Virus record (IMG/VR): IMGVR_UViG_3300005253_000004
Location: 55,471 to 119,470 of that record
From: a virus
Strand: one strand, 5' to 3'
Length of the DNA: 64,000 nucleotides
Shown: piece by piece, positions 307 to 61,136 of the stretch
Layout: every line of letters starts with the position of its first letter
Numbering within the stretch: the stretch's first letter is position 1
The notes under the pieces: generated by a model
What the model saw: the letters and a program-made list of their open reading frames with translations, nothing else
Databases searched by the model: none
Told to the model about the DNA's origin: nothing
Position numbers and translations under genes: made by a program

Positions 307-335
307 ATTATAGCTTATCTTTCAAACTTTTGCAA
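307..335 (-). promoter_or_regulatory. TTGCAA-N17-TATAAT promoter, leftward
   Basis: Read on the minus strand: TTGCAA at 335-330, a 17-nt spacer ending AAGC, and TATAAT at 312-307. It lies immediately after the helicase stop codon and points at the partial gene at the left edge. Confidence 0.7.
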
Positions 336-11002: not shown

Positions 11003-11325
11003 TAGATATAGTTACCTCCTATGTTTGCTTGCTTGGTGTCTGCTGGTGGTGCCGGTGCCGCTGCCCTCGCTGCCATAGCCTGAAGGTCTGTCATGCTGAT
11101 TGGTCTCCCGCCAGCACCAGCGCCACCCATCAGAGCGGACAAGGGTATCCCAAAGGCACCCTCCTCACTGTCATCCTCGCTTACTTTTTCTGTCACCGTC
11201 TTGATGTTGTTGTAGATCACCACCAGCATCACCAGTATGCCGGTAACAATTACACCAGCACCGAAGCCGAGCAGTCCTGCCATGATCCAGGTATTTAGTG
11301 CTACCACAGTCGTTTGACCTCCCAT
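11002..11325 (-). CDS. Single-pass membrane protein, Gly/Ala-rich tail
   Basis: 107 aa. One strong transmembrane helix at about residues 12-38 (IMAGLLGFGAGVIVTGILVM). A polar segment and a Gly/Ala/Pro-rich C-terminus (MGGAGAGGRP, AARAAAPAPPAD) follow. The start lies inside the last codons of the sigma-factor gene, preceded by AAGGAT. Function unknown. Confidence 0.6.
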   Translation of the reverse strand: MGGQTTVVALNTWIMAGLLGFGAGVIVTGILVMLVVIYNNIKTVTEKVSEDDSEEGAFGIPLSALMGGAGAGGRPISMTDLQAMAARAAAPAPPADTKQANIGGNYI

Positions 11326-12563
11326 AGATCCTTGATTTTAGCCAAGGCTGTCTTTTCAATCTTTCGTATGCTTTCTCTGCTGTAATCCTTACCACCGTAC
11401 ACTGACATAAGCAGCGGGCCTATCTCCTTCAGTGCCTTAGGCACCCTGTCCGCTGGATCATGGAAGTATCGAAGTGATATGATCTGGAACTCTATCGTAT
11501 CTAGGTTGTCTTGAAGTAACTCAAGCAGTTGCTCCTTCCTATCCTGTGTTTGGATCAGCTCCGTGACATCGGGGTCATCGTTGCTAAGCATCTCACCGAT
11601 GGTGGTAGGGTTGTTCTTATTACGGTTAAAGGGTTGATCCAAGTGGATGTAGTTGCTCATGAGTATCTTAATGAGTTCGTCTATCTCTTTAACTGTGAAG
11701 GTATTGCTGTCTACCAAGACACCCTTCTCTTTTTGAATCTTGTTCGCCTCGTTGGTCAGTGCATACAAGTTAAGGTTGTCACTCTCCAGCAGCTCATACG
11801 CCTTGACTACGATGAGTATCCTACCCATTTTGTTTCGAGGTACACGCACCAACCTACTGTTGTTCAGTATCCATTCCTGTATCAATCGCTCGCCTCTGCT
11901 GTAGGCGTAGGTACATAGCTTCACTCGCTTCCCTTCAGGTGTTTGGAAGCAAGGATCATACTTGCGTATGGATTCAAGGAAGTACATCTGTACCTCTTGC
12001 ACCGCATCGTTTTCATCAACACTCAAGATGCTAGATGAACTGCTGTTTGCTATCTCATGTGCTGCCATGAGCATGGAGCGGAGCAGCGTGTCCTCTATCT
12101 TCGCTACCTCAGCCTGCATACGGGCTAGGATCTTGGTGGGAGTCACTAGCTTCACCATCTCAGAGTAGCAGTACTCGGAGGGTAGCATATCAAAGATGAA
12201 GTGACTTGCTGCTCGATGCCCAGCAGGGTTACGTGTTCCTAGGCGCTGAAGTATACCCTCCATCTCTGTTTCTAGCTGAGCACTTAGCCCCTTCACTCTG
12301 GTATTGAAGCGAGCACACAGCTTGGCTACTGATCGGCCTTCTGCCTTTGTTTGCCGGTATAGATCTAGGTACCATTGCCTGCACTTTCTCTTGGAGAGGA
12401 TGTACATGCGTAGCTTTTGTCGTGCTATCGTGTACTCGTAGACCAGTCTGATCTCTTCTCCTTCGGTGAGGTATACTTGGTTGCGTCCTACCTCCTGATA
12501 CTGTCGATACTTGTAGTGGTTCTTGTGACTGTCGTACTGCCCTGTATCAGCGTTCACACTCAT
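11301..12563 (-). CDS. Sigma-70-family RNA polymerase sigma factor
   Basis: 420 aa. Region 2 is visible at about residues 180-245: DAVQEVQMYFLESIRKYDP, then LCTYAYSRGERLIQEW and RLVRVPRN, matching the core-binding and -10-recognition helices. Region 3 is spread over 250-330 and region 4 ends in a helix-turn-helix (LKEIGPLL...YSRESIRKIEKTALAKIK). The long N-terminus has no clear motif. It probably redirects host RNA polymerase, perhaps to the TTGCAA/TATAAT promoters in this window (inference). Confidence 0.85.
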   Translation of the reverse strand: MSVNADTGQYDSHKNHYKYRQYQEVGRNQVYLTEGEEIRLVYEYTIARQKLRMYILSKRKCRQWYLDLYRQTKAEGRSVAKLCARFNTRVKGLSAQLETEMEGILQRLGTRNPAGHRAASHFIFDMLPSEYCYSEMVKLVTPTKILARMQAEVAKIEDTLLRSMLMAAHEIANSSSSSILSVDENDAVQEVQMYFLESIRKYDPCFQTPEGKRVKLCTYAYSRGERLIQEWILNNSRLVRVPRNKMGRILIVVKAYELLESDNLNLYALTNEANKIQKEKGVLVDSNTFTVKEIDELIKILMSNYIHLDQPFNRNKNNPTTIGEMLSNDDPDVTELIQTQDRKEQLLELLQDNLDTIEFQIISLRYFHDPADRVPKALKEIGPLLMSVYGGKDYSRESIRKIEKTALAKIKDLWEVKRLW

Positions 12564-32857: not shown

Positions 32858-32869
32858 GGGTTCTTCCCT

Positions 32870-33076: not shown

Positions 33077-33249
33077 TACCCCTCCGTAGGCTCCTTAATT
33101 CTGCGTTGGATCTCTCTGCGAATATCAGCCACTATATACCCGCTACCCGAGTCGTCGTTGAAATAATCCTCATTGTCGTCTATGTATTCTATAAGTTCCT
33201 TCAGCTCGGCTTTGACTGCCATCTCTGCCGCGTATCTATTAATTCCCAT
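33076..33249 (-). CDS. Small acidic helical protein, 57 aa
   Basis: ATG 33249 follows AGGAG. Sequence MGINRYAAEMAVKAELKELI then an acidic stretch (DDNEDYFNDDSGSG) and a basic helix. Unrecognised. Second of two non-family genes in the array. Confidence 0.5.
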   Translation of the reverse strand: MGINRYAAEMAVKAELKELIEYIDDNEDYFNDDSGSGYIVADIRREIQRRIKEPTEG

Positions 33250-33257
33250 GGTGTCTC

Positions 33258-34260: not shown

Positions 34261-34289
34261 ATTATAGCTTTTCTTTCAAACTTTTGCAA
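34261..34289 (-). promoter_or_regulatory. TTGCAA-N17-TATAAT promoter for the family array
   Basis: Minus strand TTGCAA (34289-34284), 17-nt spacer ending AAGC, TATAAT (34266-34261). The spacer is nearly the same as that of 307-335. Drives 33940-34254 and the array. Confidence 0.72.
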
Positions 34290-34300
34290 CCCCCGAAAGC

Positions 34301-34329
34301 TTGCAATTTTCTGCGGGATAAGCTATAAT
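34301..34329 (+). promoter_or_regulatory. TTGCAA-N17-TATAAT promoter, rightward
   Basis: TTGCAA 34301-34306, 17-nt spacer ending AAGC, TATAAT 34324-34329 followed by GG. Divergent from 34261-34289 with 11 bp between the two -35 hexamers. Confidence 0.65.
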
Positions 34330-34336
34330 GGTATAC

Positions 34337-34365
34337 GTGCAAAGAAAAAGGAGAATTCCTATAAT
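34337..34365 (+). promoter_or_regulatory. GTGCAA-N17-TATAATTAAG promoter, rightward
   Basis: GTGCAA 34337-34342, spacer ending ATTCC, TATAAT 34360-34365 then TAAG. Second of two tandem rightward promoters; the ATTCCTATAATTAAG core recurs at 53562 and 61131. Confidence 0.7.
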
Positions 34366-36525: not shown

Positions 36526-36554
36526 TGGCATTTAAGGTAGAAAATTCCTATAAT
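36526..36554 (+). promoter_or_regulatory. TTGCAA-type promoter variant, rightward
   Basis: TGGCAT (36526-36531, 4/6 to TTGCAA), 17-nt spacer ending ATTCC, TATAAT 36549-36554. ATTCCTATAATTA core as in sister promoters; ATG of the next gene is 18 nt downstream. Confidence 0.6.
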
Positions 36555-41305: not shown

Positions 41306-41829
41306 TGGCGTGGAATAAGAGAAAGGAAGGACGCCCTAAAAGAAGGGAGTTTGGTGGAGGCTCAATCAACCGAACTGTATACGATTACATCTTAGAGGTA
41401 CTCCCTGAAAATAAGACGATATTAGAACTGGGTAGTGGGTGGGGTTCTGGAGAGTTGATGCAGCACTGGAATTTGTACTCCATAGAGCACAAAGAGGCTT
41501 GGTTCAAACTTTACAACCCACAGTCTTTTTTAGTCCCGGTTACACATGAACTAGGATGGTATGATATTGAGATACTGAAGGAAGCGCTATCGGGGTTGAA
41601 GTATGATCTACTTTTGATAGACGGTCCTCATTATGGAAGAGAACACTTCCCTGCTAACCTAGACTTGTTTGATACAACTGTACTTATGATTTTCGATGAT
41701 GTGAATCGTAGTGTAGGACAAAACGTCATAAAGGAAGTATCTGAGTTAGTGTGTAGACCTTATGTGATCCATTATCCGAATACTAAAGAATCGTTTGGAG
41801 TTATAGAAGGGACACAAACATGCCCGTAA
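41305..41829 (+). CDS. Class I SAM-dependent methyltransferase
   Basis: 174 aa from ATG 41305, overlapping the terminase stop (TGATG). ILELGSGWGSGEL (residues 40-52) is the SAM-binding motif I; LLLIDGPHYG and LMIFDDV follow at the expected spacing. Similar in length and motifs to 42085-42633, so the two may act in turn. Substrate unknown; probably a glycan or small molecule given the island. Confidence 0.75.
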   Translation: MAWNKRKEGRPKRREFGGGSINRTVYDYILEVLPENKTILELGSGWGSGELMQHWNLYSIEHKEAWFKLYNPQSFLVPVTHELGWYDIEILKEALSGLKYDLLLIDGPHYGREHFPANLDLFDTTVLMIFDDVNRSVGQNVIKEVSELVCRPYVIHYPNTKESFGVIEGTQTCP

Positions 41830-42107
41830 CGGCGTTCGAGAAGAATATTGTTAAGTCTTGTGAGATGAGAACTATTTGTGAGGTGCTTCGTGAAATCTAT
41901 TGGCACACAGAGGATTCTGTTGTTCGTGAGAAAGTCTTAGAAGCTACTGTCATGGCTAAGAAGATGGATGGGAGACTAAGGAAGTACAAGAAGCACTGGG
42001 ACAAACAGGGTATGTGGGAACCTAATGAGGGTGCTGAAGGGAAACTGAAGCAAAGACAAGAACAGTATGAAAGGGAGAAACCTGATGGCGAAAAGCGAAT
42101 GCCTTGA
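41820..42107 (+). CDS. Small helical protein, 95 aa
   Basis: Mostly helical and basic, with KKMDGRLRKYKKHWDKQGMW. Small proteins of this shape occur in phage structural clusters, but I do not recognise the family. Overlaps genes on both sides. Confidence 0.5.
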   Translation: MPVTAFEKNIVKSCEMRTICEVLREIYWHTEDSVVREKVLEATVMAKKMDGRLRKYKKHWDKQGMWEPNEGAEGKLKQRQEQYEREKPDGEKRMP

Positions 42108-42633
42108 AGAGCTAGGTTTTGGAGACTGGTCGATTGACAAAGACCTTTATGATTTCATACGAAAGGTCCTACCAGAAGGCAGCACAATACTAGAGTTGGG
42201 CAGCGGGTTCTCTACAGGGGAATTGTCGAAGTACTACACTATGTTCTCTGTGGAGCACGATGTGGCTTTTCTAGATAAATACGACTCCACGTACCTACAC
42301 GCCCCTTTAAAGGAACACAAGAAGCTCAAGAACCACGATAGCACTGAGTGGTATGACGCTAGTATCCTCCATGACTTGTTGAAGGGGTTGAAGTACGATC
42401 TTCTGTTGGTAGACGGTCCTCCCCAAACAAGGTCAGGGTTTGTTAAGTACATCAACTTGTTCGACACTAGCGCCATCTGGGTTTTCGATGACGCTGGTAG
42501 AAGCATTGATAGAGCTGTAGTCAACTCAGCCGCTAGTGTACTAGGGGTTCCGTGGGTGAACTACCGCAGCGAGGCAGGCGGGAAGGTGTATTCAGTGCTC
42601 AACAACCCGCTACTTAGGAGTACTGATGAATAA
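42085..42633 (+). CDS. Class I SAM-dependent methyltransferase
   Basis: 182 aa from ATG 42085, preceded by GGGAG. Motif I is ILELGSGFSTGEL, then LLLVDGPPQ and IWVFDDAGRS. Clearly paralogous to 41305-41829. Probably methylates a sugar or other small substrate. Confidence 0.75.
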   Translation: MAKSECLEELGFGDWSIDKDLYDFIRKVLPEGSTILELGSGFSTGELSKYYTMFSVEHDVAFLDKYDSTYLHAPLKEHKKLKNHDSTEWYDASILHDLLKGLKYDLLLVDGPPQTRSGFVKYINLFDTSAIWVFDDAGRSIDRAVVNSAASVLGVPWVNYRSEAGGKVYSVLNNPLLRSTDE

Positions 42634-43366
42634 CTGGATTACGTTTATAGGGGAGGGGAGAAGTGGGCACACAATTGTTTCTGCTATATTGGATTCGCAC
42701 CCTAATGTCCGTTTGGCAGAGGAGCAGAAGCTCATCACTAAGTGGACACGGGATGGGTGGTCACGGGAGAAAATCATCGACGCCGTCAAGAACTGCGGGC
42801 ATGGGAAAGAGCGTAAACCGAAGGCTCTACCAGGGTCGCTGACGTGGGAAGAACCGCTGCTGGCGATAGGAGACAAGTGCGGCTGGGACGCTGTGAACCT
42901 CACTAGAAAGCACGGAGAGAGTATTGACGTTTTAGATAGGTTCAGCGAACACATGTTGATGCCAGTTAAGTTGATCCACACGATCCGGAATCCGTATGAC
43001 AACATCACCGCTTACCTCGACAGCCCCAAGTCCAACCGGATTTGGCGGGATGAGGATACGCTGCATCGTATGTGCATTCGGCGATACGCGAGGTTCTACA
43101 GCACAGCGATTAAGCTATTGGAAATTTACCCCAGGTTTGATCTCTACAACGAGGAGTTGATCAAGAATCCAGAGCGTACGTTGACAAAACTGTGTGCGTT
43201 TCTTGACCTCCCTGTTGTGGAGCCTTGGCTGACCAACGCAGCGAATGCTGTGTACAAGAAGCCGAATGAAAGATCTAAGCGTCGAGTATGGCCTGCTGCA
43301 TGGGAAGAGCAGATGCCATGGCGCATCATAGGGAAGTATGCTTTCTTTGAGAGGTACACAAAATGA
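42626..43366 (+). CDS. Sulfotransferase
   Basis: 246 aa. The 5'-phosphosulfate loop is FIGEGRSGHTIVSAIL (residues 7-22) and the 3'-phosphate site IHTIRNPYDNITAYL. PAPS is the sulfate donor. First of four sulfotransferase-like genes in the island. Acceptor unknown; neighbours suggest glycan. Confidence 0.8.
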   Translation: MNNWITFIGEGRSGHTIVSAILDSHPNVRLAEEQKLITKWTRDGWSREKIIDAVKNCGHGKERKPKALPGSLTWEEPLLAIGDKCGWDAVNLTRKHGESIDVLDRFSEHMLMPVKLIHTIRNPYDNITAYLDSPKSNRIWRDEDTLHRMCIRRYARFYSTAIKLLEIYPRFDLYNEELIKNPERTLTKLCAFLDLPVVEPWLTNAANAVYKKPNERSKRRVWPAAWEEQMPWRIIGKYAFFERYTK

Positions 43367-43983
43367 TTAGAGTGCGGGACGACGACGTGCTGCTGAGTTC
43401 TAGCAGCAAGGGAGACGAGTTTACGAAGTTTCAAATGGTGCATAATTGGATCTGTGAGGTGCCTGACCGTCTCATTCATGTACCTACCATTCTAGTGACA
43501 GAGATTCAGGAGTTCCCGAAGTGCATTGAGTACATCCGCGAAGAGGCAGCAGAAGGGCGTATGGCCCCTGAGATACATGGACTGAAGCACCATGACTACG
43601 CGGCTCTCACTTCAGCAGAGATCGTTCTAGAGTTGGATGAGTGCCAGGAGTGGATCTATAAGAACCTTGGTTGCACCCCCCACAAGTTTTACTCACCTTG
43701 GGGCGCTGGAGCGGATGAACGAGGCGCACACATCAAAGGAGCCGCGAAGTCACTGGGTCTTGAGTTAGTGACATGTGAGAGCATCCACAAGATGGACGGA
43801 CGGTATGGGGTAGTCCAGGCTTTGTTGGATGGCAAAGACATTAGCTACCTTGAAGATGATGAGATCTTTCTACATTGGTGGCAGAACGTGACTCGCCTCA
43901 AGAGGATCATAGAGGTCATCAAATTTGGTTCTTGGGAGTCGGCCAGGGCAGCGAACAAGAAGTTGTTCAAGGAGGAGAAATGA
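43363..43983 (+). CDS. Polysaccharide deacetylase-like protein
   Basis: 206 aa. IRVRDDDV at the N-terminus and APEIHGLKHHDY, then HKFYSPWGAG, match the metal and catalytic regions of NodB-type carbohydrate deacetylases (D-D, H-x3-H, and a substrate loop). Would remove acetyl groups from a glycan. ATGA overlaps on both sides. Confidence 0.7.
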   Translation: MIRVRDDDVLLSSSSKGDEFTKFQMVHNWICEVPDRLIHVPTILVTEIQEFPKCIEYIREEAAEGRMAPEIHGLKHHDYAALTSAEIVLELDECQEWIYKNLGCTPHKFYSPWGAGADERGAHIKGAAKSLGLELVTCESIHKMDGRYGVVQALLDGKDISYLEDDEIFLHWWQNVTRLKRIIEVIKFGSWESARAANKKLFKEEK

Positions 43984-44555
43984 GTTACGAAGAGTATATT
44001 AGAGATTTATTGAATCGAAGGGTCAAATCCTGGCAAGACCGCGCTGCCTACATAAATGCAAAGTGGGGACCGAAGCGCCTAGGTGTTGACAACCCGGGCA
44101 ATAGAGCAGACCGTGCGTTCCTAGAAGAATACGCCGTAGGCTTAGGTGTTGACATTTGCTGTGGTGACTTTCTTTTAGGTGACGAATCCATTGGCGTTGA
44201 CATCCGAAGAACGGTGCTCGGTGCTGACTATCACTACAGCGGGGATGACCTGGCTTTCTCTAAGACAAACGAGTTGGACTACGTTCTTACCAATTACATT
44301 GAGGCTATGCCCAATGTGATTAAAGCACTCAATGAATGGTTCCGTGCTTTGAGAGCAGGTGGTACAATGGCTATCGTTTGTAGAAATGCAGATGTATACC
44401 CAGGACCTGAAGGTGCTCTAAAGAACCGACATAGAGTACACACTTTCAGTAAGGTGACGTTGTCTCATTATTTAGGCCGGGTTGGGTTCGAAGATATTAA
44501 CATAAAGGAGACAGAACACCAAACGCTGCATGTGACAGCAAAGAAGCCAACATGA
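43980..44555 (+). CDS. Methyltransferase (type 11-like)
   Basis: 191 aa from ATG 43980. Motif I is GLGVDICCGDF (residues 51-61), followed by DYVLTNYIEAM and LRAGGTMAIVC. The order fits the methyltransf_11 group. Acceptor unknown. Confidence 0.7.
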   Translation: MSYEEYIRDLLNRRVKSWQDRAAYINAKWGPKRLGVDNPGNRADRAFLEEYAVGLGVDICCGDFLLGDESIGVDIRRTVLGADYHYSGDDLAFSKTNELDYVLTNYIEAMPNVIKALNEWFRALRAGGTMAIVCRNADVYPGPEGALKNRHRVHTFSKVTLSHYLGRVGFEDINIKETEHQTLHVTAKKPT

Positions 44556-45676
44556 TTAAGATTGTAGAATCAGAGGTCACATCATTCGATACCAGCAAAT
44601 GGGCTGATATGGTAATAGGGCCTGCCCGGAGGAGGTTCTTGACTCCAACAGGTGAGCATTACCGTCTTCTGATTCACCTCGCGCATAAGATCTCAGATGG
44701 TGTATTTTACGACGTAGGAACGCTTGATGGGGCGTCTGCGATAGCGTTGGGGTCGAACCTTAGTAATCTTGTTACATCTTGGGACATCAGCGAGGTTTCT
44801 AGAAAGACCGCAGGGTATGCTTACCCTAACGTACCTGGGATGGACAACATCGAGTTTCGTACCAAGAGTATCTTCGATGAGCCTGCGTGGATTTATGACG
44901 TAGCAGACATCATCTGTTTGGATATAGCTCCACATGATGGGATTAAAGAACGTCTGTTCATGGAAGTATTAGAGAAATCGAATTTTAAAGGACTTCTGAT
45001 TTGTGACGATATACGTAACCGACGCTTCCCTAATTTGTCAAAGTGGTGGGATGAGATTGACCATCCTAAATGGATTATCCCGTATGCTCACTGTAGTGGT
45101 ACTGGTATAGTTTCATATGGAGATGAGACCATCGTCAAAGGGTACCCAACTGTTTCTCACGGCATCAAAGGTCACTTGTCTAGAGTCGAAGCAAACTGGC
45201 TTAACGAGATGCCAGCACGGATTGGAGACGGATTATATGGTGAGTTAGGCACCTACAGAGGAAGGTCTGCGGCCTGTATAGCAGGCGGCATACAGACCAG
45301 TGGTATAAAAGCACACCTCATCACAGTAGACTCTTACGATGGTAGGAGTATGACTTCAGGAAGACCACACTCAATGGAGGATACAGTTGCCTGTTTCAAG
45401 GAAAAGGGGATCAGCGAGTATGTCACTTTCATGAAAGGGCTGACGGTCCCTATGGCTGATAAGTGTAGATCTCAAAGATTTGACTTCCTCTTCATAGATG
45501 CCGACCACTCATACGAAGGGTGTAAGGCTGACTTTGTGGCGTGGAGCCCTTTGGTTAGGTCTGGCGGGGAGATCGCATTCCACGATGCCAACTTAGATTC
45601 AGTACTCCAGGTAGTGAAAGAGAGCGGGTGGGAGTGGCATATGGTAGACACGATGGCGGTGGTAACAAAGCCATGA
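44552..45676 (+). CDS. Protein with two methyltransferase domains in tandem
   Basis: 374 aa. The first domain has FYDVGTLDGASAIAL and LDIAPHDG; the second has YGELGTYRGRSAACI, FLFIDADHSYEG and GGEIAFHD. Both look like the SAM-binding Methyltransf_24 type. Two modules in one chain suggest an internal duplication or two methylation steps. Confidence 0.72.
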   Translation: MIKIVESEVTSFDTSKWADMVIGPARRRFLTPTGEHYRLLIHLAHKISDGVFYDVGTLDGASAIALGSNLSNLVTSWDISEVSRKTAGYAYPNVPGMDNIEFRTKSIFDEPAWIYDVADIICLDIAPHDGIKERLFMEVLEKSNFKGLLICDDIRNRRFPNLSKWWDEIDHPKWIIPYAHCSGTGIVSYGDETIVKGYPTVSHGIKGHLSRVEANWLNEMPARIGDGLYGELGTYRGRSAACIAGGIQTSGIKAHLITVDSYDGRSMTSGRPHSMEDTVACFKEKGISEYVTFMKGLTVPMADKCRSQRFDFLFIDADHSYEGCKADFVAWSPLVRSGGEIAFHDANLDSVLQVVKESGWEWHMVDTMAVVTKP

Positions 45677-46344
45677 ATCGAACAATCGTCTCGTACCCGG
45701 GGAGTGGTAGAACTTGGCTTCGTGTTGTCATAGGAAAGCTGTGTTCCCTTCAGAACGGCACTTCAGATAAAGACTTGTTCAGGACCCCAGGATACAACTT
45801 CTTTCACATACTACCCCCGGAAGGACTCATGGGAAGGAACTTGTTTCTTCTGAGGGACCCTAAGGACGTTTTGAAGTCTAGCTACTATGAGTACAAATAC
45901 CGCCTGAAGAGAGGCGCAGATGATATTGGAACGTTTTCTGAGTTCCTTAGGGGCCCGGCGGGTGCTTCTCAGATAACGCGACGTTATAACAACTGGCACG
46001 ATGTGTGGGAAAAGGATAGTATCTCCGGGGTGGAGTTTTATGAAGACATAGTCGCAGACCCAATAGGTGAGTTCTCTGACCTACTTGATTGGTTCGGGCA
46101 GGAGTATAAACCAATGGATCTAGCCGAAGCTGTCAAGTTTGCAGAGTTTGAAAACCTACGTAGGCTTTCTAAAGAGCAGTACTTCAACTCAACGTATCTA
46201 AACGCTGAAAACCCTAACGATGCTAGAACCTATAAGTTTAGAGTAGGTAGGGTCGGGGAAGGTAACGCGTTCATACCAGAAGAAGACATGGAGTATGTTG
46301 AGAAGACGTTTAGCAAGATCAAATGGAGTAGGTACCGTGGGTGA
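45673..46344 (+). CDS. Sulfotransferase
   Basis: 223 aa. SYPGSGRTWLRVV is the 5'-PAPS loop and LLRDPKDVLKSSYYEY the 3'-phosphate site, typical of carbohydrate/alcohol sulfotransferases (Sulfotransfer_1 type). Acts with the other island enzymes (inference). Confidence 0.8.
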   Translation: MNRTIVSYPGSGRTWLRVVIGKLCSLQNGTSDKDLFRTPGYNFFHILPPEGLMGRNLFLLRDPKDVLKSSYYEYKYRLKRGADDIGTFSEFLRGPAGASQITRRYNNWHDVWEKDSISGVEFYEDIVADPIGEFSDLLDWFGQEYKPMDLAEAVKFAEFENLRRLSKEQYFNSTYLNAENPNDARTYKFRVGRVGEGNAFIPEEDMEYVEKTFSKIKWSRYRG

Positions 46345-46909
46345 CGGGAAGATCCTAATTATGGGTGTTGGGGGTTGTGGGTCTGGTTTCCTGTGGAAGC
46401 TACTTGATGATTGTGGTCTTGAGACTCTTGGTATCAATGAGTGGATGCGGCACAGCGGCATCAGGCAGGCAGTAAAGGAAGGCGTTCATGCTGAATTTAA
46501 GTCCCCCAAAGTCATCAAACATCTTGGAGGGTTTCTTACCAATTTGAACTATCATATTGACCAACACAATTGGGAAGTCGAACACATTTTCTTTGCCGTG
46601 GCGTCTCTAGGTATGCAGATGCAGAGCTTTAGGGAGCGTACCCGCCGAGGGCCTTTTGATTACGATACCTATCTGGATAAGTACAGGTATCAGCTAGGCA
46701 CGGGCCTGATCCAACTAATCGAAAGAGACCATCCCTTCAGCCTTATTGAGTGCCCCCGTTCTTTATCAGATTCTAAGTACTGCTACAACAAATTGAAGAT
46801 CGTCCTACCAGATACATCGTATGAAGAGTTCGCTGAAATCCATAAAGCTAGAGTGAACCCTGTGCGGTTGAAGAATAGGCTAAAGGGTTTGGAGGAACAG
46901 AATGACTAA
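46337..46909 (+). CDS. Sulfotransferase-like P-loop protein
   Basis: 190 aa from GTG 46337, overlapping the upstream gene. ILIMGVGGCGSGFLWKLL is a P-loop of the sulfotransferase fold. The 3'-phosphate motif is not clearly seen. Short C-terminus. Likely a diverged sulfotransferase. Confidence 0.6.
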   Translation: MGDGKILIMGVGGCGSGFLWKLLDDCGLETLGINEWMRHSGIRQAVKEGVHAEFKSPKVIKHLGGFLTNLNYHIDQHNWEVEHIFFAVASLGMQMQSFRERTRRGPFDYDTYLDKYRYQLGTGLIQLIERDHPFSLIECPRSLSDSKYCYNKLKIVLPDTSYEEFAEIHKARVNPVRLKNRLKGLEEQND

Positions 46910-47795
46910 GCTGATCGGGGTAATGTGTGTACGAGATGAAGCGGATTTACTTCCTGAGGTCTACCCTCATATTAAGGAACTGGTGGATGAAATTTACGTC
47001 TATGATGATGGCTCTACGGACGACACCTGGGGGCTGGTGAAGGACGCAGACTACGCCATTCGGCGGGAGGACGACATTAACCGCCTTAGTATTCCGCGAC
47101 CCAACTATCATCACCTCCTAGAGAAGATCAAGGAGAATCACAACATAGAGGAAGAGGATGTTTGGGCGATCATCACGATGGGTGATCGGTTTTTCCTGAA
47201 CAAGACACCGCGCCAGATTGTGAAGGAGGCAGGAGATTACGTGTCGGTACAGGGGATCCAGTTGGATTTCTTGCGGCACCGCAGGGACCCTTGGACGGAA
47301 GAGAATGATGGGTTCCCAAACTACTCACAGAGCCTACGTGAGCTTTGTCGAGCGGTGCGGGTAGATGAACGATGCACGGTGGCCTATAAGGTGACGAACG
47401 AGACCACCTATCAGCGGGCCAGATACCCCTGGCCTAAAGGAGCAGGCACGCCACAGTATTCAGATCTCGGGGATAAGATCTCATTGGACATGCCTTATCT
47501 CGAACACCAAGGAAGACGTTCACCTAAAGCAGCCCAGTGGCGATACAACACAGGGAGCCGCCCTATTGGGAGGAAGTATCAGCATTGGGACTTCAGCACG
47601 TTTGAATCTTCTATGAAGAGTATGCGCCGGTTTTATGAACCTTATCGGGTCTACCCTTGGGCGGGGTCTGAGTCGTTGGAGTTGATCATCAAGTGGTACA
47701 ACACTGAAGAACTGATGAATACTTCAAGTAGGCGATGGTTCTTCAAAGGTATGGAAGCGGTGTGGCCCGAACTGCCTCCGAGGACTGACATATGA
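46902..47795 (+). CDS. Glycosyltransferase, GT2-like
   Basis: 297 aa. [18 protein letters not shown], then [12 protein letters not shown], matches GT-A fold family-2 glycosyltransferases. No standard DxD metal motif is visible later (ITMGDRFFL is the nearest), so donor use is uncertain. Would add a sugar to an acceptor. Confidence 0.72.
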
Positions 47796-48331
47796 GCACC
47801 AAGCATTGTAGCTTGACAGGGGTTCATGAAGTAGGTCGCGGAACTTATGGAGAACCTGTTGTGAGGCACTGGAAAGAGAAGCCTCCTGCTAAGCTACGTG
47901 TGGGCGCATACTGTTCCTTCGCAACAGGAGTAACCATTTTCCTGGGTGGGGAACACAACACACACTGGATCTCTACCTATCCGTTCTGTTCTATGCTGCA
48001 CGCTAAAAGCAAAGGCCACCCTAAGACCAAAGGCGATGTCGTTATCGGGAATGACGTGTGGATTGGTAGCGGTGCAACCATCATGTCAGGGGTTACGATT
48101 GGAGATGGTGCTGTAATTGGGGCTGAGGCTGTTGTAGCTAAGGACGTGGCTCCTTACGCCATAGTGGTCGGCAACCCTGCGTGTGAGATACGTAAACGGT
48201 TTAATGATGATACTATTGTGTATCTCCTAGACCTGAAGTGGTGGGACTGGGACGAGGAAAAGGTGCTGGGGGCTGCTGATATATTCATGTCAGGTGACTT
48301 CGATAAGTTGAAGGAGTACGCAAATGGGTAA
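47792..48331 (+). CDS. Hexapeptide-repeat acetyltransferase (XAT-like)
   Basis: 179 aa. Left-handed beta-helix repeats ([18 protein letters not shown], then [17 protein letters not shown]) with [13 protein letters not shown] before them and the [13 protein letters not shown] ending. This matches xenobiotic/NodL-type acyltransferases that use acetyl-CoA. Forms trimers in the family. Confidence 0.85.
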
Positions 48332-48923
48332 GATCTTCGGCATAGGCTTGTCCCGCACAGCGACCAAAGGACTATCTACGGCTCTCAACAGCCTTGGAAT
48401 CAAAACGATCCACTATCCTGAAGAATACGATACGCTCAAGTTGTTGTCGAACGGGGTCTTCAAGCTGCCTATATTAGAAGAGTATGATGCCATCACAGAC
48501 ATCCAGACGGTTCCGTTCTACCCCCAGCTAGACGAGGAATACCCAAATAGTAAGTTCATCTTCACTGTGCGTGACATTGACTCGTGGCTGGAATCTACTA
48601 AGAAACATTTCAAAGGGGTAGAGCGCGAGGAACGCTTGGTGAGGGACATTAAGTACTCTGAGGTTTACTGGATGCGGTCTGCGGTGTACGGGACGTTGGT
48701 ATGGGATCGTAGTGTGTTCCGGCAACGTTATTACACTCACCATACAGCGGTCATGGACTACTTCGAAGGCAGAGACAATTTGTTGGTGCTGGATATCTGT
48801 GCTGGGGACGGGTGGAATAAGCTGTGCCCCTTCCTTGGTGTGGATACTCCTAATAGTAGGTTCCCGGATAACATAACCGCCGAGCGCCTCGTCAAGAGAG
48901 CTTGGAGAAACAGAAGCAAATGA
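48324..48923 (+). CDS. Sulfotransferase (Sulfotransfer_4 type)
   Basis: 199 aa. [19 protein letters not shown] is the 5'-PAPS loop; [12 protein letters not shown] the 3'-phosphate site; [14 protein letters not shown] the family C-terminal signature. Fourth sulfotransferase-like gene of the island. Confidence 0.8.
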
Positions 48924-49657
48924 AACACTATCTTATCACACCGTGGAATGCTGACAATCTCGACCCGGAGTGGTTGGACGAGAGGCATATCCTGTATGAG
49001 AAGTACTGTCTTCCATCTGTTCTCTCACAAGATAACGAGGACTTTGAGTGGCTCTTGATAGTAGACTCCCGAACTCCAAAGCAATACAAGAGTAGATTGG
49101 AATCCTATCCAGCTACGATAATCTATCATGACTTCGGGACTACTGAGTGGAAGTTCGACTTGGAAGGCAAGGGTAGGGGGCACCGTGCTGTCAACCTCGA
49201 ACACAGCGTGGCTGAGCCTCTACGAAACTACATAGGTACACCAGACACAGACTACGTGATTACGTCTAGGCTGGATAGTGATGACGCCATTAGCGTTGAC
49301 CACATTGCCAAAATACAGAGACATGCCAAACAGCGTGGTATAAGAAAAGAAAGGTTCTGGCTAAACATTGTCAGAGGTATGAAGCTGCACGAAGGAAACG
49401 TGTACCCGATCAACCGACAGAGTAACCCTTTCATCTCGTTTGTGGAGCCGCCGTACGATTTGTTGACTACCTATCAAGTCTCACACGTCGAGGCGGTGTG
49501 TACAGGACATCATATCGAGCAAGTACGAGAAGGAAGCCCTACTTGGTTACAAGTAATACACGGCGGAAACCTGTGCAACAGGCTGATGAGGTTTCGTGGT
49601 GAAAGACCTTTCTCAACGGTGAGCGACTGCTTCAAAGTAAAAGGCCCCGGATCGTAA
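48920..49657 (+). CDS. Rhamnosyltransferase-like glycosyltransferase
   Basis: 245 aa from ATG 48920. WLLIVDSRTPKQYKSRLESY, VITSRLDSDDAISVDH and a later WLQVIHGGNL match the putative rhamnosyl transferase family. The DSDD is the likely metal-binding DxD. Last gene of the island; its stop codon lies within the terminator hairpin. Confidence 0.75.
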   Translation: MKHYLITPWNADNLDPEWLDERHILYEKYCLPSVLSQDNEDFEWLLIVDSRTPKQYKSRLESYPATIIYHDFGTTEWKFDLEGKGRGHRAVNLEHSVAEPLRNYIGTPDTDYVITSRLDSDDAISVDHIAKIQRHAKQRGIRKERFWLNIVRGMKLHEGNVYPINRQSNPFISFVEPPYDLLTTYQVSHVEAVCTGHHIEQVREGSPTWLQVIHGGNLCNRLMRFRGERPFSTVSDCFKVKGPGS

Positions 49658-50986: not shown

Positions 50987-51181
50987 TCATTTCTCCTTCT
51001 TTTGTCTACCTTGTGATCTCAGCTTTATGCCCTCCTCCACCAGCAATATCCTGATGGTGCTCGCTGAGGTATCGAACCATTCTGCTACTTCCTTCAGAGA
51101 CCCACCTCCTTGGTAGGCCCCGATGATATTGTCCTTGAGCTGTAGCAACTGTCGCTTCTTGTTGCTGATGCGTCTACTCAT
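50987..51181 (-). CDS. Small HTH protein, 64 aa
   Basis: Basic with a helix-turn-helix: DNIIGAYQGGGSLKEVAEWF, TSASTIRILLVEEG. Likely DNA-binding. First gene below the promoter at 51205-51233 with GGAGGA 8 nt upstream. Could repress the inverted block (inference). Confidence 0.6.
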   Translation of the reverse strand: MSRRISNKKRQLLQLKDNIIGAYQGGGSLKEVAEWFDTSASTIRILLVEEGIKLRSQGRQKKEK

Positions 51182-51204: not shown

Positions 51205-51233
51205 ATTATAGGAACTTTTAACTTTAATTGCAA
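51205..51233 (-). promoter_or_regulatory. TTGCAA-N17-TATAATTAAG promoter, leftward
   Basis: Minus strand TTGCAA (51233-51228), 17-nt spacer ending GTTCC, TATAAT (51210-51205) then TAAG. Drives the HTH gene at 50987-51181 and the genes below. Confidence 0.7.
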
Positions 51234-51958: not shown

Positions 51959-52094
51959 CTTGTCTCTCCCTTTGTTTGATTTCTTTCTTCAGTTTGCGGC
52001 TGCATCTCTGACAGACTAGCCGATTGTCTACGACCTTGATACCATCGATGACTTTGCATCGGTCACAGAGGTCGTTATCCTTGTGGTTGTGCAT
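51843..52094 (-). CDS. Small two-CxxC zinc-ribbon-like protein
   Basis: 83 aa. CDRCKVIDG (10-18) and CQRCSRKLKK (28-37) form a likely zinc ribbon, then a highly Arg/Glu-rich helix. Its last 116 bp overlap the start of the gene at 51242-51958 in another frame, so its end may be shorter in practice. Supported by the metal pairs. Confidence 0.5.
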   Translation of the reverse strand: MHNHKDNDLCDRCKVIDGIKVVDNRLVCQRCSRKLKKEIKQRERQDERRSQQGEAGAVSRERRSRNSKYVQWGRATPPGDSAF

Positions 52095-52695
52095 CTTGCT
52101 TCCTTGCGTTGGGTGAATTGTGTGTTTTGTGTTGCCTTAGGATGTGTGTCCTCACTCTGTGGCAGTTAGAACACACTAAATCACAAACTTTGATCTCTTC
52201 TTCTACGACTCTGATATTCTCCAAGGTTCTTTTGTATGAGTTGTGCTTTGATAGGGTAAATCCTTTCGATTCGTTTGGTCTGTGGTCGAAGTCCATTACA
52301 ACCCAATCGTAAGTATCTCCGCAGTCTAGACAAGGGGTTCTGGTGTACTTGTCTTCTAGATAGTGTTGGATCTTGTTTCTGTTCTTCTCATGTTTTCTGT
52401 GCCACGGCATACCATACTTCCTATTCTCAGTCTTAGTTCTTTCTGGATTGTCTTTTCGCCATTGCCGTTTTCGTGCTACAGCAGCTTTTCGTACGGCTGG
52501 GTCTGCTCTTCGCCTCGCAGTATCCCTGGCATCGGCACGGGCTCTGTTCTTCAAATACCAAGCAGAAGAACTTTCTGTATTACAAGCCTTACACCACGCC
52601 CTACGCTTTCCAGGTTTCTTTTTCTGCCACTGCCATGCGAAATAACCTAGAGGGTGCTCACATTTGCATTTCGTACAGATTTTGGTATCACTCAT
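52075..52695 (-). CDS. HNH endonuclease with zinc-ribbon
   Basis: 206 aa. CTKCKCEHPLGYF near the start and CKACNTESSSAWY form a first Cys cluster. A basic helical middle follows. The catalytic HNH is at the end: CLDCGDTYDW, VMDFDHRP, VCSNCHRVRTH. Common among phage free-standing nucleases. Overlaps the integrase stop. Confidence 0.85.
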   Translation of the reverse strand: MSDTKICTKCKCEHPLGYFAWQWQKKKPGKRRAWCKACNTESSSAWYLKNRARADARDTARRRADPAVRKAAVARKRQWRKDNPERTKTENRKYGMPWHRKHEKNRNKIQHYLEDKYTRTPCLDCGDTYDWVVMDFDHRPNESKGFTLSKHNSYKRTLENIRVVEEEIKVCDLVCSNCHRVRTHILRQHKTHNSPNARKQDAQPQG

Positions 52696-53515: not shown

Positions 53516-53544
53516 ATTATAGCTTATCTCTCAAAAGATTGCAA
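53516..53544 (-). promoter_or_regulatory. TTGCAA-N17-TATAAT promoter for the integrase
   Basis: Minus strand TTGCAA (53544-53539), spacer ending AAGC, TATAAT (53521-53516). The -35 hexamer is shared with the divergent promoter 53539-53567 because TTGCAA is its own reverse complement. Confidence 0.72.
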
Positions 53545-53567
53545 CTCTTAGAGGGATTTCCTATAAT
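53539..53567 (+). promoter_or_regulatory. TTGCAA-N17-TATAATTAAG promoter, rightward
   Basis: TTGCAA 53539-53544, 17-nt spacer ending TTTCC, TATAAT 53562-53567 then TAAG. Drives the tail-fibre operon; uses the same -35 hexamer as the integrase promoter. Confidence 0.72.
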
Positions 53568-53603: not shown

Positions 53604-53882
53604 TTGGACGAAAACAAGGAAGTTGAAGAAAGAACTCCAGGGCTGGTTCTGACCGGATTCGGGAAGCACAAGCTGAAAAACATGTTGGAGTGGATAGGTA
53701 CCGACAAAGAGATAGACCTCCTCACAGCCTTCCGGAAGTGGCCTGCCGTGTACCGAGAGGAACGGATAGCCGACGAAGAGGACCTAGAGTACGCTTGTCG
53801 GTTTCTAGCCTTCCTTCAGGATGCCGTTTTAGAGTACGAACTACAGAGCCCCCCAGAAGGGGGCAAGGAGAACACCGAATGA
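53604..53882 (+). CDS. Small acidic helical protein, 92 aa
   Basis: TTG start at 53604 with GGAGGGAG upstream. Helical with KHKLKNMLEWIG and DEEDLEYACRFLAFLQDAVL. Acidic. First gene of the virion operon. Unrecognised. Confidence 0.55.
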   Translation: MDENKEVEERTPGLVLTGFGKHKLKNMLEWIGTDKEIDLLTAFRKWPAVYREERIADEEDLEYACRFLAFLQDAVLEYELQSPPEGGKENTE

Positions 53883-54196: not shown

Positions 54197-54715
54197 ATGG
54201 CCTTCTACGTTGGCTCCTACCTGATCCTACAGGATTCGATAGATCTAAAACACGACTCTGATAATTGGGAGTTGCCGGATACGACCGCCCATCAAGGGCA
54301 CATGGGCCAGACATCCAACGTTGAAGAGCTGCTGATCAAACCAGAAGACATGGATCTACTCCCGACCCAGATCCAATTCGGGATAGATGAATGGAGCGCA
54401 GATGAGGGGTTTTCACCTGACCATGAGGCATTCAGACAATTCTATGTGCGAGACGAGGCATTCTACGTTCGAGGTTTTGTGCCGCGTGATTACTGGACGC
54501 CGACGTTTTACCCAGCCGGAAACTTCTACGTCAGAGGATTCACTCCTATCGACTACTGGACACCCATGTTCTACCCAGCAGGGAATTTCTACGTACGAAA
54601 CTTCGTTCCTACTGACCACTGGGTGCCAATGTTCTACCAAACCGGAAACTTCTACGTGAGAAACTTCACCCCTACAGATTTGTGGTCTGAGTTCTACCCG
54701 GCGGATTACTCGTAA
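54197..54715 (+). CDS. Protein with 20-residue aromatic tandem repeats
   Basis: 172 aa. About five repeats of the pattern FYVRxFxPxDxWxPxFYxxGN (residues 80-165) follow an acidic N-terminus. Each repeat is 60 bp. The aromatic strand repeats suggest a fibre or adhesive tip. It precedes the large tail fibre by a one-base overlap, so probably part of the same assembly. Confidence 0.6.
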   Translation: MAFYVGSYLILQDSIDLKHDSDNWELPDTTAHQGHMGQTSNVEELLIKPEDMDLLPTQIQFGIDEWSADEGFSPDHEAFRQFYVRDEAFYVRGFVPRDYWTPTFYPAGNFYVRGFTPIDYWTPMFYPAGNFYVRNFVPTDHWVPMFYQTGNFYVRNFTPTDLWSEFYPADYS

Positions 54716-57700
54716 TGGCAGGTAACGACACAACGACTTCTGTAGAATTCTACGCCCCTTGGCCCGACTTCGGTAGGGCACTTAACCAGCAATGGGGGGA
54801 GATACGCCACGACATGGCTGCGCTCGCTCCGCTCGTTCGGGGCGCAGGCCTTGACTCGGACGGCGACTTCTCTACTCTGGACGACGTAGAGAAGACAGCG
54901 TTACAGGCGTGGGAGCTGGGTGAAGACGGCTTCCATAACAAGATCCGGCACTTCTGGAACAAAGCCACCGACACCCTTGAGATCCAAGCCAACATCCCGC
55001 CTGGAACCGAGCAGGCCCCAAACTGGTACACTGTGTGGTCGGTTGGCGACGACGGACAAGTCACTCAGCAAACCACCCCCACTACTGCAAGCAACGTAGG
55101 CACCGGAGCAGACGTCTTCAAACAGAAGACTGGCGTGGACCTACAGTTTAGAACCATTAAGGCTACCGGCGTCCTGTCTGTAGCGGAGAACAGCCTCGAC
55201 CTCACCCTAACCAGTACTGCGGAAGCCAACACAGCTAGCAGCCTTGGGGGTGCTTCGCTGGTTGGTACGAAGGTTGGCGTGGATCTCCCGTTCAAGGGCC
55301 TCACGGCTGGGGACAACATGGAGCTTACAATCGGGGCTAACTCGATCACGTTGAAGTCCACGTCCCAGATCGTTGAGTTCTACGGCATTGTGGTTGCTCA
55401 TTCTGATGACAGTTACACAGCCCGGGGCACACACGTCCTTAAGGTCAATGTAGACCACTTCTACCTGACAGGTAGCGGGCGCTCTAACGAAACCCTCCTC
55501 AACCTCAGAGGAGAGATCTTCAACTCTGATCTCTACGTTGCTGTGGCAGGAGACACCATGACAGGTGCTCTCCTCCATCCTGACGGTTCTGCTGGTGCTC
55601 CTGCCGTATCCTTCTCAGGGGACACAAATACTGGTATTACTCGCCTAGCTTCTGACGATCTGGCGCTGGTGTCTGGTGGTGCTGCTGTCTTGCGTGCTCT
55701 CACTGACCGCGTGTACCTCCCTAAGAACCTCCAGATCCTGGCCGATGGTACCGCTGCTGCTCCTGACTTATTCTTCTTCCCTGATACTGATAGCGGTATC
55801 TATCAGGAAGGCGTGGATAGTGTCGCTTTTACTACAGGCGGTAAACAAGCCGGGTACTTCGACTCCTCTCAAAACCTACATGTATTTAATGATCTTAGGT
55901 CTAGTAGAGTAGAAGCGGGGGTTGGTAACTTTTATACATCGTTGATTGTAGGTAGCACTGCTACTCTGAAGTACGATGGTAATCTTCTTATAGATCCGCA
56001 GGGCTTAGGAGGCAGCGGTTACACTGATTTCACGGGTGGGATCTTTGTAGCCGAGGATGAAACCTCATTCAGTAGGTTCGGCGGCGATCCGACGGGCCTC
56101 AACCCAAGCGACACGCAAGACACACTGGCCGCACGCATGGTTCGGTCTACTACGGGTAGTGGTTCGAGACGCGCTGGACTATTCGTTATGGATCTCGACT
56201 GGACCGGGACCAATGCTGGCGGTCTAAACATGGGTGTGAATGGTCTGGTCTATACCGACGTAACCACCGACGCTGGTAACACAAAGACAACCGCATTCGG
56301 CGGCGGCGTTGGCGGCAGATACGCTTTTCGACATCTGAGTTCTGGTTTGTTCTCGATGGCGGGTGGAATCTCATCGATGGCAGCAATCACTGGTGCCGAT
56401 GAAGAGGGGACAATCACAGACGCCTACGCCTTTCTCAGTGAGGGTGGGGATGGCGGTGCCGCCTCTGGCGAAATTACCAACTACTATGGATTCTGGCACA
56501 AGGGGTCCGGTGGGAATGTTGTCAATGAGTTCGCCATCTACATCGAGGATATGGGTAACGCGAACCTAGGCGACGCTGCCCCCATCAAGATTGACCAACA
56601 AACCGGGCCGGGTGGCGCGGCGATCTGGTTGTCGGCAGATAATGCGACCCCGAGCGGAGTAGCAAACGGCATCGCGTGGGGAAGCAATCAGCAGATTAAT
56701 ATCTATCCCAGCAGCGGCGATCTGACTACGGACGGCAACTTCTTACTGACCTCTGCCTCAGAGCTGCGGTTCAGGCAAGCCACTACCGGCATCTATTCCC
56801 AGGCCAGCGACTTCCTAGACCTCTTTGCTTCCGGGGCCGTCCGAATCGGCAACAGCGACGGACAAGCGCCGACCACCTATTTATCTGTCGAACCTGACGG
56901 TGACGTTATCTGGACCACCGCTGCTGGAACTAGCAAGATATCCCTCCGGTCGGACAAGTTCTTGCTTATGGATGGCGTCTTGGGCTTAGACGGGGGGGTA
57001 CTCTACTTCACCGAAACCACCACCCCGACGCCCATCGGCAACGCGGGTGCCATTTACACCAAGGCCAACAATGAACTCTTCTTCCAAGACGGCGCGGGCG
57101 CGGAGCACAGCGTCGCCCTCCTCGACTCAATCTCGCAGTTTTATGCTGTGACGTTTAGAGAGTCGGGCCCTGGGCGTGTGTTGCAGTCGGATACTGTCAC
57201 GTTCGATACTGCTGGCTTCTACGTTTCTATAGGCGGTGATGGTAAACCTTTGGTTTCCCCACAGGGTACTATCATCCGGACTGATACACATGAGGGTATT
57301 TATAATCTGATACATCTAAATGATGGTGGGTTGGGGGACGATGAAGCATTAGGAATGACCGTATCTTCGGATGGCGCTACAATCACACTTACTATCACAA
57401 ACACAGCCCCAGGTAAAGCGGCAACCGATCCGCTAGAACTTCAGTTTGAAGGACAGAACTACACATATACTCCTAGCGGTGGTGCAGAGACTCTTACTCT
57501 GAGTGCTGGTTCCGCTACAGTTCCGGTTGAGAACTTTGTTGTTTTTGAACTTAGCGGCGGGGTGCCTTTTCTTGCTACTTCTGCCACAGACTGGCCTAGT
57601 GACACCTTGGGCGAACACCACGGTAGAGTCTGCTCGGTTGTTGTTCAAGACGCGGCGAGCGTTCAGACCCACGGTGCTCTAAAGATACATGCGTGGACAG

Positions 57701-59394
57701 ACCATATTGAAGAAGTACACGGAGCCGGTTCCGGAGAACGAGGGGAGCGGGGGCACCTCCACTCAATCGCTGAACGCCTTCGAAACGAGCCTGCGGTTTG
57801 GCGTAGTGGCTCTGCTATTACCGTTGACAACAGCGGTACAACCAACCCACTGTACGTGCATATCACCAGCGGAACCGGGTACCAAATGCACCGGCACTCT
57901 AGCCCTGCGCTAGACACAGACGCCTCTGATAGCATCTGGGTAGTAAACGACGACACCACCCCGTATCGCAAGATTGATAGTCTAGATGATGTAACTCGAT
58001 ATGCTACTGGTGGAGACGGAGCAATTGGAGTTTCAGCGAAGCTAACTGTTGTTCTTTGGATGGTTGTCAATGAGAACTCAAGCGATACAAAGCTCTTCCT
58101 TAATGTCCCAACCGGAGGTTACAACACAGTATCAGCAGCCCAAACGGACTCTTCTAATAAAAGAGTACACAATATTCCTCAGGCGTATGTTGGAACGTCT
58201 ATTCTTTTGTATGAGCTTGTGCTTAGTAGATCTGGTGGCGGTAGTACTTGGACTGTTGAAGATACTATTGACTTGCGCGGCGTCCCTGGCGTAGCTGTTG
58301 GCGGTGGTGGGGCAGCCACTACTGGTGAGGTTAATACAGCCAGCAACGTGGGTGCTGGTGCTGGGGTGTTCGCCCAGAAGAACTCCATTGACTTAGAATT
58401 CAAATCCCTCAAGAGCCAGGACTCTACTATCTCTGTGACCAACGACGCCGATGAGATCTTTATTGGAGCTACGGGGTCGTTCTACACTAACGTCACTGTA
58501 GAAGGTACCGGGAAGGTTGGGATTGGTACAAATAATCCACAAAGTAAATTACATATTATCGACGCAACTGAAGCTAGTATTTCTTTACTGGAAGATGAAT
58601 CTTCAGGAGCAGACGTTTGGTACGACGGTGCAAATAACCTATTTAAGATTAGCACAGGTACTGGCGGTGCTGGAAACCAAACGGATCGTTTCTCAATACA
58701 AAGAGATACGGGTAACGTCGGGATTGGAACGACTACTCCTCAAAGAGGTTTTCATTACGAAGGGATATTTCTAAAGGTTGATAGGATAAATAGTGACCCA
58801 CATTTTGAGATAGGATTCCAAGGAAACCCAGGAACAAATACTATACTGGGAAGAATGAAGTTTGGTGAATCTGTTAGTGGCGCAACAACTTTTAACGTAA
58901 GAGCGACAATGGAGGCAATAACAAGTCCCACTAATTCAGATTTAGGAGAATTGTTATTTAAGACTGGATCCGGTCCACTCGAAGCGGGGCGCTTCGACGC
59001 AGATCGAAACCTCCACGTCCTCAACGACGTCAAGGCTAGTAGGGTAGAAGCAGGCCACGGTAGCTTTTACACTGCGTTGAACGTGGACGGACCAATTACT
59101 GTTGACGGAGGTGCTGCGAAGTTAACTGTTGGTGATAGTGAAACCGGAAACGATAGTATTATCTCTTACTATGATGATGGTGCCCTCGCTTGGACTGTTG
59201 GGTTCGATAATACTGCTACTGAATTTGTCATCACCAGTGGTGCTATGGATGGAACTAATAATGAGATCAATCTTGCACCGGATAAGATTGGATTCTTTAA
59301 TACCGCGCCGATAGCTAAACAAACAGGTGTTGGTGTGGATGCAGCTTCCATACATGCTGCGCTTGTAGCTTTGGGGTTAATAAGTGGACCGTAA
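54715..59394 (+). CDS. Large tail fibre protein
   Basis: 1559 aa. N-terminal 60 residues (TTSVEFYAPWPDFGRALNQQ) may attach to the virion. The body has repeated fibre modules: GVDLxFxxxKATG, GDTMTGALLHPDGSAGAPA, SFSGDTNTGITRLASDDLAL, VGIGTTTPQ-type motifs and several GFDAxLHVxND copies. It ends with APDKIGFFNTAPIAKQTGVG. Such proteins form trimeric beta-helical fibres that bind the host. No chaperone domain is seen. Confidence 0.8.
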   Translation: MAGNDTTTSVEFYAPWPDFGRALNQQWGEIRHDMAALAPLVRGAGLDSDGDFSTLDDVEKTALQAWELGEDGFHNKIRHFWNKATDTLEIQANIPPGTEQAPNWYTVWSVGDDGQVTQQTTPTTASNVGTGADVFKQKTGVDLQFRTIKATGVLSVAENSLDLTLTSTAEANTASSLGGASLVGTKVGVDLPFKGLTAGDNMELTIGANSITLKSTSQIVEFYGIVVAHSDDSYTARGTHVLKVNVDHFYLTGSGRSNETLLNLRGEIFNSDLYVAVAGDTMTGALLHPDGSAGAPAVSFSGDTNTGITRLASDDLALVSGGAAVLRALTDRVYLPKNLQILADGTAAAPDLFFFPDTDSGIYQEGVDSVAFTTGGKQAGYFDSSQNLHVFNDLRSSRVEAGVGNFYTSLIVGSTATLKYDGNLLIDPQGLGGSGYTDFTGGIFVAEDETSFSRFGGDPTGLNPSDTQDTLAARMVRSTTGSGSRRAGLFVMDLDWTGTNAGGLNMGVNGLVYTDVTTDAGNTKTTAFGGGVGGRYAFRHLSSGLFSMAGGISSMAAITGADEEGTITDAYAFLSEGGDGGAASGEITNYYGFWHKGSGGNVVNEFAIYIEDMGNANLGDAAPIKIDQQTGPGGAAIWLSADNATPSGVANGIAWGSNQQINIYPSSGDLTTDGNFLLTSASELRFRQATTGIYSQASDFLDLFASGAVRIGNSDGQAPTTYLSVEPDGDVIWTTAAGTSKISLRSDKFLLMDGVLGLDGGVLYFTETTTPTPIGNAGAIYTKANNELFFQDGAGAEHSVALLDSISQFYAVTFRESGPGRVLQSDTVTFDTAGFYVSIGGDGKPLVSPQGTIIRTDTHEGIYNLIHLNDGGLGDDEALGMTVSSDGATITLTITNTAPGKAATDPLELQFEGQNYTYTPSGGAETLTLSAGSATVPVENFVVFELSGGVPFLATSATDWPSDTLGEHHGRVCSVVVQDAASVQTHGALKIHAWTDHIEEVHGAGSGERGERGHLHSIAERLRNEPAVWRSGSAITVDNSGTTNPLYVHITSGTGYQMHRHSSPALDTDASDSIWVVNDDTTPYRKIDSLDDVTRYATGGDGAIGVSAKLTVVLWMVVNENSSDTKLFLNVPTGGYNTVSAAQTDSSNKRVHNIPQAYVGTSILLYELVLSRSGGGSTWTVEDTIDLRGVPGVAVGGGGAATTGEVNTASNVGAGAGVFAQKNSIDLEFKSLKSQDSTISVTNDADEIFIGATGSFYTNVTVEGTGKVGIGTNNPQSKLHIIDATEASISLLEDESSGADVWYDGANNLFKISTGTGGAGNQTDRFSIQRDTGNVGIGTTTPQRGFHYEGIFLKVDRINSDPHFEIGFQGNPGTNTILGRMKFGESVSGATTFNVRATMEAITSPTNSDLGELLFKTGSGPLEAGRFDADRNLHVLNDVKASRVEAGHGSFYTALNVDGPITVDGGAAKLTVGDSETGNDSIISYYDDGALAWTVGFDNTATEFVITSGAMDGTNNEINLAPDKIGFFNTAPIAKQTGVGVDAASIHAALVALGLISGP

Positions 59395-61107: not shown

Positions 61108-61136
61108 GTGCAAAAGATTGAGGAAATTCCTATAAT
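61108..61136 (+). promoter_or_regulatory. GTGCAA-N17-TATAATTAAG promoter, rightward
   Basis: GTGCAA 61108-61113, 17-nt spacer ending ATTCC, TATAAT 61131-61136 then TAAG. Drives 61162-61419 and the portal gene; ribosome site AAGGAGG follows. Confidence 0.7.

Follow-up and report, generated by a model that had tools for sequence, protein, structure and literature searches.

At 53.5 kb in the window (64,000 nt; it spans 55471-119470 of G000, a virus record 119,470 bases long) two operons diverge from a short intergenic region, the flanking genes being those of a tyrosine recombinase and of a 92-aa protein; the adjoining repressor gene of a CI/Cro-type switch was not found in this place. A preliminary description of this DNA had assigned the two directions to an integrase and to a tail-fibre operon. 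Both the integrase and the virion character of the rightward operon stood up, and one product of the same operon in a related genome (G002) is a virion structural protein of 499 aa (PHROG 1645, E 5.5e-38). The fibre label is weak, and we refer to the 1559-aa product as a putative tail fibre. The features discussed are collected in Table 1.

Table 1. Promoters and genes of the window discussed in the text (window coordinates)
Feature	Position	Strand	Evidence or counterpart
Class E promoter	307..335	-	
Phage RNA polymerase sigma factor, 420 aa, in class E leftward block	11301..12563	-	PHROG 351 E 7.1e-22
Class E promoter, divergent from 34301..34329, -35 boxes 11 bp apart, unshared	34261..34289	-	
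Class E promoter	34301..34329	+	
Class L promoter, tandem, downstream of class E promoter	34337..34365	+	
Class L promoter	36526..36554	+	
Class L promoter within integrase-side leftward gene run	51205..51233	-	G001:C1:14716-14744
HNH endonuclease, overlaps integrase 3′ end	52075..52695	-	PHROG 2255 E 3.8e-21
Tyrosine recombinase (integrase), 264 aa	52688..53482	-	Pfam PF00589 Phage_integrase E 2.3e-23; PHROG 1 E 1.4e-35
Class E promoter, integrase operon	53516..53544	-	TTGCAA-17-TATAAT, AAGC before -10
Self-complementary -35 hexamer TTGCAA common to both promoters	53539..53544	both	
Class L promoter, virion/tail operon	53539..53567	+	TTGCAA-17-TATAAT, TTCC before and TTAAG after -10
First rightward-operon gene, 92 aa, without family	53604..53882	+	orthologues in G001, G002, G008
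Repeat-rich 172-aa protein, virion operon	54197..54715	+	orthologues in L135, L065 by position and sequence
1559-aa fibre-like protein	54715..59394	+	weak PHROG 692 virion structural, E 0.0095
Class L promoter	61108..61136	+	

The geometry reported in the preliminary description proved exact: TTGCAA is its own reverse complement and is separated by precisely 17 nt from a TATAAT box on either side (53521-53516 on the minus strand, 53562-53567 on the plus strand). Each promoter thereby matches 10 of the 12 consensus positions, with near-consensus hexamers spaced within the 16-18 nt of sigma70-type promoters. The two cores overlap on opposite strands by 6 bp, as expected of overlapping divergent promoters, while 40 bp (53522-53561) lie between the -10 boxes, which therefore do not overlap reciprocally as in bidirectional promoters with a shared -10. 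The integrase start codon (leftward, 53482) stands 33 nt past its -10 box and the rightward TTG start codon (53604) 36 nt past the other, and a purine-rich ribosome-binding site is present for both genes.

TTGCAA-N17-TATAAT with up to two mismatches occurred 14 times in the window against a mean of 3.73 (sd 1.88) in shuffled sequence, and none of 100 shuffles reached 14; a simpler count of promoter-like sites (7 against 5.5 expected) was by itself insufficient to show an excess over chance. Across the whole record the promoters fall into two recurring sets, class E (AAGCTATAAT, six sites) and class L (TTCCTATAATTA, seven sites), which have TTGCAA/TATAAT as a common core and are told apart by the bases flanking the -10 box. 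Sites carrying TTCCTATAAT, located by their -10 side only, all had GCA at the -35 place at 17 nt (7/7), and six of the seven AAGCTATAAT sites of the record had TTGCAA there. Weight matrices separated members from the next best site in the record (class E, 41.3-52.7 against 22.8; class L, 43.6-50.6 against 21.8), although these values show the gap only, each matrix having been trained on the sites that it scores. Among relatives, GCA was present in the -35 of 27 of 29 unique L sites and all nine unique E sites, many of the loci having been fetched with a pattern that contains GCA. Taken together, the shuffles, the matrix gap and the -35 constraint at sites found through the -10 box reject a chance match, and with class motifs and conservation in relatives both promoters look real, as had been proposed. 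The locus at 53.5 kb is thus one class E and one class L promoter fused back to back. Two further candidates were left out of class E: 6733-6761 (minus strand), which lies inside a helicase frame (6486-7955) and scores 16.7 in the E matrix, and the AAGCTATAAT occurrence at G000:84036, which has no -35.

The two classes front different genes. Class E precedes the leftward block, which encodes a DNA polymerase, DnaB-like helicase, ligase, UvsX-like recombinase and SSB (37 proteins scanned; among the 25 most frequent of 92 families) as well as the sigma factor. Class L mainly precedes rightward blocks, where a scan of 39 proteins matched 22 families and the products include terminase, major head, internal virion and tail proteins. 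Exceptions in orientation are the leftward L site at 51205 and the rightward E site at 34301. Because of this gene content E and L were labelled early and late, and such a timing is suggested by the sequence. At 34261-34365 three promoters are combined, a divergent E/E pair followed by a tandem L promoter, with a matching set at G001:C1:33234-33337. Behind the terminase lies a rightward cluster (41284-49657) whose cargo is unusual for a phage: the scanned proteins include members of sulfotransferase and glycosyltransferase families, and genes resembling those of methyltransferases and acetyltransferases were noticed by eye. Several small proteins encoded at 30655-34066 (minus strand) were seen by eye to end in Cys-x-x-Cys (CENC, CTMC, CRRC) and a short hydrophobic tail, and may form a zinc-ribbon-like family that arose by duplication; a frame at 24508-24954 (plus strand) consists of short tandem repeats, LSTELATLSIELFT and variants.

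Two features expected of a sigma-factor cascade are present, namely a distinct motif before virion genes (class L, seven sites) and a phage-encoded sigma factor, assigned by PHROG 351. The latter is 87% identical to its counterpart in the related genome G001; its Sigma70_r4 match falls below the Pfam cut-off, its predicted structure is unusable (pLDDT 37), and it had no match among named phages or solved structures. The terminase gave one weak match among named phages. Pfam detected no CI-type repressor among 86 small proteins of the record, most of the larger ones having been scanned with PHROGs only; the sole helix-turn-helix family was HTH_58, in a 64-aa protein encoded nearby (50987-51181).

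Orthologous integrase/tail loci were found in three relatives (G001, G002 and G008), with integrases 53-72% identical to that of the window, and all three have overlapping divergent promoters. G001, a 119,599-base record reached via the sigma factor, matches G000 in gene order around the integrase and in its kinds of promoter. In its intergenic region the L promoter is kept and the E promoter sits 10 bp nearer to it, each having its own -35 box, with the two boxes interleaved; GCCA replaces the GAAA of the E consensus in the E spacer, giving L a TGGCAA -35 at 17 nt. The overlap is consequently 16 bp, and the outer -10 edges are 42 bp apart, compared with 52 bp in G000, a difference of about one helical turn. 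The shared TTGCAA is retained in the other two loci, each with a 6-bp overlap: in G002 (integrase 56% identical) at L065:10025-10030 with 17/17 spacing, and in G008 (53% identical) at L250:1111-1116 with spacers of 18 and 17 nt. Since G002 is itself one of the loci from the scan for the shared pattern described below and hence biased, the unbiased cases are G001 (unshared) and G008 (shared), the latter found by way of an L site at another place in its record. Overlap is thus better conserved than the shared hexamer (3/3 and 2/3 loci, respectively), and the shared palindrome is not essential, the -35 boxes of G001 being separate.

All four loci, the window included, carry an identical TTCCTATAATTA. 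The integrase promoters of G002 and G008 have AACA or AACC before the -10 box; with AAGC missing, their class E label rests on position, TTGCAA and spacing. In G008 the integrase is separated from the divergent promoter by a 109-aa gene (L250:1175-1504) that the other three loci lack. Further searches added little. An integrase search of viral contigs returned one relative, L009, in whose upstream region no L or E promoter was seen by eye, and terminase and tail-gene scans led to G001 and G002 again and to no further relatives. When 22 records (20 with L motifs and those of L065 and L009) were searched for the integrase, 19 gave no match, and orthologous loci among the three that did were those of G002 and G008 only. 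Integrase alignment in genome contigs kept 80 of 109 relatives, all of them distant.

An exact scan of IMG/VR for a central TTGCAA with TATAAT 17 nt away on each side returned 97 stretches, compared with nine for 14-nt spacers and one for an ATGCAT centre. Clustering at up to 10 mismatches in the matched core reduced the 97, which are not independent, to 40 clusters and the nine controls to four. A ribosome-binding site and start codon within 90 nt on both sides accompanied 59 of the 97 stretches and none of the nine controls, and the same two-sided signal occurred at 92 of 1940 random positions in the same loci; by crude gene calls, 15 of the 97 lay within open frames longer than 80 aa and four between convergent genes. 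An RHH-like frame was present within 700 bp at 51 of the 97 loci (14 of 40 clusters). RHH_3 was identified in 20 of 24 hand-picked small divergent proteins, and 38 hand-picked larger neighbours included 11 HNH, seven NUMOD3 and six IS605 OrfB proteins. These counts and neighbour families indicate that phages have the arrangement repeatedly, in settings unrelated to one another. In the unrelated phage contigs L021, L029, L041, L082, L087, L090 and others, TTGCAA lies between a gene for an RHH_3 protein of about 55 aa and one for a homing endonuclease or IS605 OrfB (e.g. L021:804-1801), which is possibly a self-regulated mobile-gene cassette; palindromes such as AGTCCAAGGACT or CTACAAGTAG surround the hexamer at these loci.

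RNA polymerase covers promoter DNA from about -55 to +20. Because the common -35 makes the two footprints overlap heavily, and those of G001 likewise, simultaneous binding is very unlikely, and the earlier proposal that two polymerases would not occupy both promoters at once very probably holds; the overlap is kept in all three orthologous loci. Transcription starts, the pairing of sigma factors with the two classes, timing and exclusion are here predictions from sequence. On balance we lean, if only slightly, towards reading the fused sigma70-type pair as a temporal handover in which integrase expression declines as that of the virion genes rises. The E promoters would be read first and yield replication proteins, the integrase and the phage sigma factor; the L class would be activated later, helped by the phage sigma factor or another phage factor. 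One polymerase on the central TTGCAA would exclude the other direction, and loading on L would occlude the integrase promoter, making the handover one-way. Experiments on E. coli bidirectional promoters, which share a -10, found no competition at basal strength but clear competition once either direction was made stronger or was activated (PMC12825309), and a one-way handover is favoured for this reason. Published work also supports polymerase exclusion at the overlapping divergent promoters Pc and Pr of plasmid pLS20, which form a switch in combination with a regulator (PMC4207663).

The preliminary description had gone further and seen a built-in either/or switch between integrase and virion genes. 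This goes beyond the sequence, since the E. coli promoters of basal strength just cited act without competition, and because the two classes front replication and virion genes, respectively, they may mostly act at different times and so hardly compete. Nor is a bistable choice between lysis and lysogeny established, given that competition depends on promoter strength and that a CI-type repressor was not found among 86 small proteins scanned; the integrase may serve another purpose.

An unlikely, though still sizeable, alternative is compaction without regulation, in which the near-palindromic -35 of both classes lets divergent promoters be packed at no cost, each remaining independent and exclusion being negligible. 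The intergenic regions are indeed short and alike (121, 123, 123 and 126 bp), class E ordinarily uses the palindromic TTGCAA as its -35, the two promoters of G001 exist without a shared box, and the E. coli work puts basal bidirectional activity too low for competition (PMC12825309). Against this reading, sharing spares only 6 bp, yet overlap is found in all three relatives, that of G001 involving a newly placed -35, and the second divergent pair of the phage (34.3 kb) has its -35 boxes 11 bp apart in G000 and G001 alike.

We regard it as improbable that a DNA-binding regulator over the central hexamer controls both directions together, a role that an RHH repressor could play at the endonuclease loci of unrelated phages. 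The frequent divergent RHH_3 genes and the palindromes around the hexamer in unrelated shared -35 phages are in its favour, as is the HTH_58 protein encoded nearby, but inspection of the four orthologous loci by eye revealed no conserved dyad around TTGCAA, mainly promoter elements and leader ends being aligned. Slighter still are the prospects of the notion that one promoter alone is real, the other being a chance match or driven by an extended -10 only. It could draw on the loose -35 boxes of class L, among which GTGCAA, TGGCAT and TTGCAC occur, and on the strong conservation around the L -10 box. Against it are the invariant GCA at 17 nt in the seven G000 sites found by -10 only, and the E matrix score of 50.0 for the leftward integrase promoter (class range 41-53), which has a counterpart in all three relatives.

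A shared palindromic -35 that joins two promoter classes would be a simple means of making two phage programmes mutually exclusive without a repressor, and the G000 and G001 loci, differing in overlap, would offer a natural test system for polymerase competition. A broader proposal, which we hold only tentatively and think rather doubtful, is that the palindromic -35 is a 'hinge' and a recurrent phage device: one TTGCAA would load polymerase in either direction, hard-wiring the passage from integrase to virion genes in one lineage and coupling RHH regulators to mobile endonucleases in unrelated phages.

Overlapping divergent promoters and bidirectional promoters with a shared -10 are already known; in phrase searches of the open PMC literature on shared, common, overlapping or palindromic -35 boxes, no description of a shared palindromic -35 came up. 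Lysis-lysogeny switches of the CI/Cro type use a compact divergent promoter pair, and the present locus resembles them in its compact pair with an integration gene on one side, whereas no CI-like repressor was found among 86 small proteins scanned with Pfam and its partner operon consists of virion genes. Another point of comparison is the phage sigma-factor cascade, of which T4 gp55 provides one example. In phiEco32 and phage 7-11 a sigma factor is likewise phage-encoded and replication and virion genes stand under different motifs (PMC4331800); here, in contrast, the core of both motifs is the same TTGCAA/TATAAT, and only the surroundings of the -10 box distinguish them. The pLS20 pair is alike in that divergent, overlapping promoters of sigma-A type make polymerase itself part of the switch. 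The favoured reading of that pair places one -10 on the other promoter's -35, and the two promoters, several hundred-fold apart in strength, are both under the control of RcoLS20 (PMC4207663), whereas at our locus both promoters have full -10 boxes. A further likeness is to the bidirectional promoters of E. coli and Salmonella described by Warman, Grainger and colleagues, in which one symmetrical element serves polymerase in both directions and binding is exclusive. There the -10 is shared and divergent starts are 7-25 bp apart (PMC10268837, PMC12825309), whereas in this phage it is the -35 that is shared and the predicted starts would lie about 65 bp apart.
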